The translations under genes were made by a program, and so were the position numbers. DNA of 64,000 nucleotides from Mugil cephalus (lineage: Eukaryota; Chordata; Actinopteri; Mugiliformes; Mugilidae): NCBI RefSeq assembly GCF_022458985.1, contig NC_061776.1, positions 11,922,591 to 11,986,590 of the forward strand, given 5' to 3'. This document shows, piece after piece, positions 48,729 to 53,060 of the stretch (the stretch's first letter is position 1; each line of letters begins with the position of its first letter). Under the pieces are notes generated by a model. It did no database searches. It saw nothing but the letters and a program-made list of their open reading frames with translations, and was not told where the DNA came from.

Positions 48729-48736
48729 TATAAATA
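48729..48736 (+). promoter_or_regulatory. TATA box of the novel repeat gene
   Basis: TATAAATA followed by GGG lies about 150 bp before the first in-frame ATG (48878). Initiation would be expected near 48760. The match is strong and correctly placed for the downstream reading frame. Confidence 0.6.
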
Positions 48737-48877
48737 GGGATCAGCTCCTAAAAGCCACACGTGAGTTATTGATCGGTAAACCTACCAGAAGACACACAGC
48801 GAGCGAACGTGAAGATTACTTCATATTCAACACAGCAACAGTCAGAGATTCGAACAGTAAACACTATTCGATTTGAA

Positions 48878-49741
48878 ATGGAGACCAGTGCTACAAACAG
48901 CTACAAGGTTCACAGAACCTTTAAAGTTACCCTGCGTAACTTTAGGCACCAAGTCTACATTCCAAAGAAGTCTGCCATGACGTCTGCAGAGGAAAACAAG
49001 GAGAAGTCTCAGCCAACGGACTCCAGGAAAATCACTGTTAACTTCCAGGAGGAGGTTGAGCAGAACATCAGCATCCAGCTCAACAACGAAGACTTTCCAG
49101 CTCTCCAGACCGAGCCGACTCAACCCCAGGAGTCACAGAAGAACTCCAAGGCCGCTAACCTGAGGGGACCCCGTAAACAGAAGAAGGACAAGATGGCAGT
49201 TAAAATGACCTACGCGCAGGCAACCAAACGTGCATCACTTGCCAACTCGCCTACACTGTCCCCCACAGCCGCCGAAGTACCTGGTACAGCAACTGAAGTA
49301 CCAGCCACAGCTATCACAGTATCTGATGCAGCTCCAGGGATTCCTGTCGCAGCTCCCACAGTACGTGAGCCAGCTACTGGCATTAGAGCTGCCTGCCTGC
49401 CGCATTTCCAGATGTGCCTGCACCCACAGTCTCCGATAGAATGCCTGCCGCATTATCTCCAGAGAGTGGCATTCTGCCATATCTCCAGATATGGCTACTG
49501 CATTTCCAGAAGTGCCTGCTGCATCTCCAGAAATGCCTGCCGCATTTCCAGATGTGCCTGCCACATCTCCAGAGGTGCCTGCCGCATTTCCAGAAGTGCT
49601 TGCCATATCTCCAGATATGGCTACTGCATTTCCAGAAGTGTCTGCCGCATCTCCTGGAATGCCTGCCGCATTTCCAGATGTGCCTGCCACATCTCCAGAG
49701 ACCAGTGCTACAAACCGCTACAAGGTTCACAGAACCTTTAA
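48878..49741 (+). pseudogene. First, frame-broken unit of the novel repeat gene
   Basis: I do not recognise this protein. The ATG opens METSATNSYKVHRTFKVTL, a conserved block of about 105 residues with FQEEVEQNISIQLNNEDFPA, LRGPRKQKKDK and TYAQATK. It then reaches VPGTATE-type heptads and REPAT. After about 49380 the frame slips, and again near 49465-49475, so the heptad array is read as meaningless CHISRGACRIS-type peptide until the stop at 49741. The offset to the next unit is 817 bp, not a multiple of three, whereas units 2 and 3 are 792 bp apart. Either this unit is a decayed copy, an intron or frameshift joins it to the main frame, or the assembly is wrong here. It holds the only start codon near the TATA box. 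Confidence 0.5.
48881..49697 (+). repeat. Tandem unit 1 (817 bp, diverged)
   Basis: Starts at GAGACCAGTGCTACAAAC, as do units 2 and 3. It is nearly identical to them across the first 500 bases but has an altered heptad part with extra and missing bases. Confidence 0.85.
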
Positions 49742-52691: not shown

Positions 52692-52769
52692 GAGACCCAG
52701 CCTCAGTCTGACCTCTGTCATAACCGCTGTCCTATCACCCACTCCCCGTCCAAAACCCCCATTTTTGTT

Positions 52770-53060
52770 TATTGTTGTGTGAATGTGAGTGTGAATGGTT
52801 GTTTGTCTCTGTGTGTTTGTCCTGTGATGGAGCCCTGGCCAGAGTGGCCTAGTGTCTCTCTGTGTTAACCCTGTGATGTACTGGCAGCCTGTCCTTACGG
52901 TATTGGACAAAAACATCATTTGTCCATTGCCTGCTGGAAGAAGCTCCAGACATCAACAGGTGTATGCTCTAACATCTACGGACAATGAATGAATGAGTGA
53001 ATGAATGAGTGTCTTCATTAACAGCATAAAAATAAAAAAAAAAAAAAAAAAAAAAAAATA
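52770..53060 (+). repeat. Teleost dispersed repeat copy 2 with terminal poly(A)
   Basis: GTGAGTGTGAATGGTTGTTT and CCTGTGATG...CTGGCAGCCTGTCC match the reverse complement of the repeat near 2.2 kb. The element runs through GCTGGAAGAAGCTCCAG and GAATGAATG units into AATAAA and an A tract of about 27 bases. It forms the probable 3'UTR and poly(A) region of the novel gene. Confidence 0.6.

Follow-up and report, generated by a model that had tools for sequence, protein, structure and literature searches.

The stretch of DNA analysed here, referred to below as the window, comprises 64,000 nucleotides of the Mugil cephalus genome. In its last quarter lies a locus that is probably a protein-coding gene, composed of recently duplicated repeats and a long coiled coil. 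The features of the locus and its clearest neighbour are as follows, with positions counted from the first letter of the window:

38551..39108, minus strand: opioid-receptor-type exon
48563..48696, plus strand: two copies of GATGGWATGTGATGTCAT, 116 nt apart and ahead of the TATA box
48632..48663, plus strand: two near-palindromes of X-box-like sequence, candidate promoter elements that precede the TATA box
48729..48737, plus strand: TATA box TATAAATAG, with the first ATG 149 bases further on
48878..49741, plus strand: frame from the natural start, 287 aa, covering the unit 1 block and then the heptad array read out of frame
48881..49375, plus strand: unit 1, basic block and degenerate heptads
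49365..49488, plus strand: hypothetical intron, the shortest listed (124 bases), covering the aberrant stretch
49376..49480, plus strand: aberrant stretch of the unit 1 array, with 25 net extra bases relative to unit 2, mostly insertions, that break the frame
49698..50195, plus strand: unit 2, basic block and degenerate heptads
50196..50489, plus strand: heptad array 2, with 14 repeats of 21 bp
50490..50987, plus strand: unit 3, basic block and degenerate heptads
50988..51428, plus strand: heptad array 3, with 21 repeats of 21 bp, of which the final ones are degenerate
51429..52001, plus strand: basic Pro/Thr-rich linker with short imperfect repeats (TRF: 45-bp unit at 51494-51582)
52002..52691, plus strand: coiled coil and basic C-terminal tail (KKSLKKRFINLFRRT), from hydrophobic periodicity and helix prediction
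53028..53058, plus strand: A-run holding AATAAA at 53031

The preliminary description had placed the gene between oprk1 and atp6v1h. The first neighbour is represented by the exon at 38551-39108, which we take to be that of an opioid receptor. The second is weakly supported: a query protein matched over 17 residues at 55214-55164 (minus strand; E 0.48), and a chance-looking match elsewhere reached E 0.16. Peptide probes for both neighbouring genes were found in one case out of 19, that one being from the opioid receptor, and a Pfam search of the six frames of 54-64 kb found nothing.

The repeated blocks start at 48881, 49698 and 50490. Units 2 and 3 are 792 bp apart, and a comparison of 49491-50282 with 50283-51074 shows 12 differences in 792 positions, which bears out the earlier account of two 792-bp in-frame units. 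The unit then described as diverged is unit 1. At the protein level its block shares 96% identity with the unit 2 block (98% for the unit 3 block), and strong divergence is limited to its array, at 49376-49480. Five degenerate heptads follow each block, and regular 21-bp units come after them. Heptads of the [MV]PA[AT][FS]P[DE] type do follow each block as was claimed, in unit 1 only past a break: the regular units of array 1 lie beyond the disturbed stretch, with the in-frame units from 49488 comprising nine that were examined and a tenth at 49677-49697. Array 3 is divergent at its outer edge as well. Duplication of the 792-bp unit and expansion of the 21-bp minisatellite would account for the growth of the gene.

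An open frame of 1066 codons is present at 49491-52691 on the plus strand (stop-to-stop opening 49440-52688), as initially reported. Its first ATG, at 49491, lies inside a heptad array, 613 bases past 48878, and seven other ATGs precede it counting from 48757. A scanning ribosome is therefore not expected at 49491 unless two frames have been joined. The first ATG after 48757 is at 48878; it has a good context (GAAATGG) and opens unit 1. The whole 1066-codon stretch is without a stop, though a break sits upstream: the frame from 48878 requires a net +1 shift in order to continue into the long frame. The 1066-codon frame is not the natural translation product, and the gene taken as a whole cannot be called "uninterrupted": read from its natural ATG, it breaks in the unit 1 array. 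The data agree with the general description, that of an unrecognised gene combining tandem units, heptads and a coiled coil. With its frame broken near the natural start, the gene may or may not still make a full-length protein.

The break was located by aligning unit 1 with unit 2. Outside 49376-49480, the two align over 349 and 324 bases with four differences and no gaps. Within that stretch, three of four gap costs gave 26 extra bases, one missing base and one to three substitutions, and the stiffest gap cost gave 25 extra bases and 15 substitutions. At the loosest gap cost there were nine insertion runs, six of them of 3-6 bases and three of a single base. Ordinary decay yields mainly substitutions, so the stretch looks like a complex local event, an unhomogenised array edge or an assembly fault.

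One consequence could be that the gene was recently inactivated, as a pseudogene or null allele in which the insertions in the unit 1 array end translation at 49741 and the rest has stayed open through youth. The net +1 frame break is present in the sequence, no homopolymer of more than three bases occurs in 49376-49480 that would suggest a simple sequencing error, and the differences among the copies are compatible with neutrality. Against inactivation, neither stops nor frameshifts occur in the 433 codons at the 3' end or in the remainder of the 1066-codon frame, so that any inactivation must be very young, and 26 inserted bases, one missing base and one to three substitutions within approximately 100 bp (three of four gap costs) would be an odd event. 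We consider this reading unlikely, although it deserves to be taken seriously.

A fault of assembly or gap filling over a hard repeat, with the gene itself continuous, would be a special case of the reading that we prefer, and we rate it as no likelier than inactivation. The aberrant stretch differs from unit 2 almost purely by insertions, unlike ordinary decay, and is located in a 21-bp repeat. Such a fault is less readily reconciled with insertion runs of which six in nine are 3-6 bases long and three are single bases (loosest cost), or with the 15 substitutions at the stiffest gap cost. The outer edge of array 3 is divergent too, so a divergent array edge can be natural.

The frame could also be restored by splicing. 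The preliminary description had called the gene intronless, a label that is unproven because splicing from a donor at 49365 could bring the reading back into frame. In a crude splice scan, with frame-restoring pairs pre-filtered for the right phase, GTGAG at 49365 was the best donor in 48878-49739, lying at the 94th percentile among GT sites of the window and having the required phase. It is the donor in every one of the eight frame-restoring pairs listed. The nearest acceptor, at 49488 (96th percentile among AG sites of the window), gives the 124-base intron, and the other candidate introns end at 49530-49698. By arithmetic, removal of 49365-49488 joins the frame from 48878 to the long frame, giving 1229 codons.

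Such an exitron-like intron would explain the aberrant stretch as sequence that diverged because it is non-coding in unit 1. In its favour, the best-scoring donor has the appropriate phase, acceptors that restore the frame follow shortly after the aberrant stretch, and the strong divergence does not extend beyond 49376-49480, within the proposed intron, with flanks showing four differences and no gaps. Exitrons are already a described class (PMC4484396). Several points count against it: position -1 of the donor is a C and its score is 1.02 bits, the acceptor has a weak tract, and the donor sequence of 49365 recurs in units 2 and 3. The 124-base pair ranks sixth of the eight listed, behind acceptors 49614, 49677, 49593, 49551 and 49530 and ahead of two others. 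Since five pairs outscore it, the splice sites do not single out one intron, and the candidate intron is a lead whose end is not fixed by its sites. Overall, we find it improbable that an intron of this kind is the explanation. Programmed +1 frameshifting was set aside as exotic; a single +1 shift in the frame overlap at 49440-49741 would join the frames. We lean slightly towards the view that the living gene has a continuous message across the first array, through an assembly fault or splicing.

The evidence that the locus encodes a protein is unevenly distributed. The length of open frame within the arrays says little, since further frames, on either strand, stay open there for approximately 100-400 codons. 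The case for coding rests on the 3' part, with its 433 open codons and its mean heptad hydrophobic pattern (0 of 500 shuffles). In 51390-52691, which is mostly non-repeat, the 433 open codons exceed the longest opening in any of 2000 mononucleotide shuffles (234) or 2000 second-order simulations (385). A single reverse frame stays open there as well, for 212 codons.

The repeats themselves give no sign of selection. Between copies, nonsynonymous and synonymous differences numbered 7 and 1 (units 1 and 2), 6 and 4 (units 1 and 3), and 3 and 3 (units 2 and 3), for approximately 378 nonsynonymous and 117 synonymous sites. The Ka/Ks comparison between copies, which had been proposed as a check on the gene, could be carried out and has almost no power at three to seven nonsynonymous and one to four synonymous differences per pair; its outcome is compatible with neutrality. 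No purifying selection among the copies was evident in any of the three pairs, with the few differences that they offer. A codon test of the heptads against one consensus took in 44 units, 25 of them distinct, with the array 1 unit at 49677-49697 left out. Its N/S ratio in the coding frame was 1.13, the highest of the six frames (0.48-0.97 in the other five), so the arrays show no constraint on amino acids.

These results bear on the idea that the locus does not encode a protein and is a minisatellite-rich stretch with a chance open frame. The heptads are open in several registers on both strands, the repeats are without a sign of selection, and the 3' part has its 212-codon reverse frame, all of which would be expected of such a stretch. 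An open 3' part that combines coiled-coil periodicity with a confident predicted helix would not be expected of it, and we hold a chance frame to be very unlikely.

The preliminary description's roughly 200-residue coiled coil at the C-terminus was borne out by two lines of analysis. Within the last 229 residues, the heptad hydrophobic periodicity of residues 26-200 averaged 0.392, as compared with 0.216 in shuffles, and was reached by none of 500; the best single coiled-coil window was matched by 14 of 500 shuffles. AlphaFold, using the sequence alone, predicted a single helix at residues 3-227 of these 229 with a mean pLDDT of 87.4. The heptad periodicity and the long predicted helix place the C-terminal part in the coiled-coil structural class.

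Charge alternates along the chain, with a pI of 9.8 for the block, 4.1 for the heptad array, 10.2 for the linker (51390-52001) and 11.2 for the last 23 residues. The model of the block is of low confidence (mean pLDDT 47.2), which fits disorder; it contains long strands at residues 8-27 and 49-67, amounting at most to a beta hairpin, and pLDDT falls below 50 from residue 76 on. The layout, the repeat identities, the charge pattern and the helix prediction are results of the analysis; expression, dimerisation and a binding partner are inferences. The product may be a disordered, multivalent protein that forms a dimer or oligomer through its C-terminal coiled coil. Its basic blocks and tail would bind an acidic partner, such as nucleic acid, a microtubule or a membrane, and its proline-rich heptads would act as extended acidic spacers. 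The whole would be a multivalent scaffold with several basic contact sites per chain. Judged from the sequence, a multivalent scaffold appears to be the most economical reading, and the scaffold or RNP role that had been offered earlier as a guess seems reasonable given basic and acidic modules together with a coiled coil.

A bolder version would make the locus a member of an undescribed fish-lineage gene family, in which the duplicated basic block is a new beta-hairpin module that binds nucleic acid or microtubules, carried on acidic proline heptads and clustered by the coiled coil, and in which one coding array has turned into an intron (donor 49365). We give this combination very little credence. 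If true, it would be a tandem coding repeat caught while becoming non-coding.

The gene appears to have a promoter of its own. The TATA box claimed for it is present as TATAAATAG at 48729, and 9-mers of this type occur three times in the whole window, both strands counted. Upstream of it, GATGGWATGTGATGTCAT is presumably a CRE-like core. The consensus used for the promoter scan is what we take to be the X-box (RFX-type) consensus; matches with two mismatches lie at 48632-48645 (both strands) and 48650-48663. X-box-like matches with at most two mismatches number 12 in the whole window, some sites being counted on both strands, against 3.04 expected, and none of 100 shuffles reached 12. Because of this window-wide excess, such sites are not specific to the promoter of this gene. 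The well-placed sites at 48632-48663 hint at germ-cell or ciliary expression, a lead drawn from the promoter motifs. As a separate observation, the X-box-like palindromes range over 15993-48663, and those at 36-43 kb flank the opioid-receptor exon on either side. A heat-shock promoter was considered and rejected: no heat-shock element with at most one mismatch occurs between a match ending at 46888 and a match starting at 49630, and across the entire window 25 matches compare with 21.94 expected.

At the 3' end, the poly(A) region of the preliminary description was recovered as the AATAAA at 53031 within the A-run at 53028-53058. It is the only AATAAA or ATTAAA in the 510 bases searched past the stop (52691-53200). 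This end of the gene raises the prospect of a retrocopy or transposon-derived gene, in which the intronless body, the A-run and the TGAATGAA repeat tail would represent an inserted reverse-transcribed message or a LINE/SINE-linked piece. The 1066-codon frame needs no intron and an A-run of about 30 bases lies at the 3' end. Ahead of the A-run are TGAATGAATGAG repeats, which presumably resemble the 3' ends of L2-type elements. Two exact 7-base repeats are common to both flanks, as chance can also give. Single-exon genes make up nearly 28% of zebrafish orphan genes as compared with 6% of conserved genes, and retroposition is named as one cause, in a 2013 survey (PMC3599513). A retroposed origin is made distinctly doubtful by other features: no exact flanking repeat longer than 7 nt was found between 48600-48800 and 53025-53130 (exact repeats only), the AATAAA lies inside the A-run and not 10-30 bases ahead of it, the locus has its own TATA box upstream, and no transposon family was found in Pfam.

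Relatives were sought in collections that do not include fish. Four query stretches yielded no Pfam-A match above the curated cut-off; the best scores, which we took as chance, were 17.7 bits for RNA_pol_Rbc25 (cut-off 25.1) and 17.2 bits for eIF3_N (cut-off 26.8). Among PDB sequences there was no significant match, the best being that of the coiled-coil part to YibL (E 0.07), and a profile of the block had no match there at E up to 10. In viral contigs, 18 pattern-matching stretches for the last 229 residues and 31 for the unit 1 block included no confirmed relative; nor was any of 31 pattern-matching stretches confirmed in bacterial genomes, which were searched with the C-terminal 313 residues only. 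The earlier statement that the protein belongs to no assignable family thus holds for Pfam, PDB sequences, viral contigs and, for those 313 residues, bacterial genomes. We infer that the gene is most likely young and lineage-restricted. The literature that came up, judged by titles and the first lines of abstracts, contained no description of such a gene, which is no proof of novelty.

Taken as a whole, we favour a young or fast-evolving, lineage-restricted protein-coding gene of one exon or nearly so, with a probability of roughly 0.5 for the full reading. In order, it would have its own TATA promoter, its start codon at 48878, and three basic blocks that are nearly identical, each followed by an acidic array of Pro/Ala heptads; a basic linker would then lead into the C-terminal coiled coil, which carries a basic tail.

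Known genes offer partial parallels. By description only, the protein may be likened to FSCB and CABYR of the sperm fibrous sheath, in which proline-rich repeats occur in a scaffold-like protein. FSCB has a single coding exon; we know of no long C-terminal coiled coil in it. Proteins of the involucrin and trichohyalin type are also comparable by description only, in that they have one large coding exon which expanded as short blocks of codons were duplicated in tandem. They differ in their repeat and genomic setting, and no EF-hand family was among the Pfam matches here. In the zebrafish survey (PMC3599513), orphan genes resemble the present gene in having no recognisable family and in the over-representation of single-exon genes, and many new genes are expressed in the reproductive system. 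Their mean protein length is given there as approximately 131 aa, unlike the 1066-aa repeat-built frame at this locus.

Lineage-specific, repeat-built orphan proteins are already known as a kind, and this locus would probably add a further member. If expressed, it would give a fish genome one more unclassified repeat-built coiled-coil protein, and would be a clear example of a coding minisatellite that expands, homogenises and, in one copy, loses its frame. It also cautions that the longest frame of a repeat-rich locus may differ from the one that is translated.

Two other elements were observed in the window. A MITE-like element of 606 bp at 55262-55867 adjoins the supposed last exon of atp6v1h. 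It is bounded by 18-nt inverted repeats, TCAGTGCATTTACATGCA and TGCATGTAAACGCACTGA, that are 94% complementary, and contains most of a 214-codon open stretch at 55417-56058. A tRNA-Arg (TCT) gene at 29101-29195 was found by both Rfam and ARAGORN, and its length of 94-95 bases suggests an intron.
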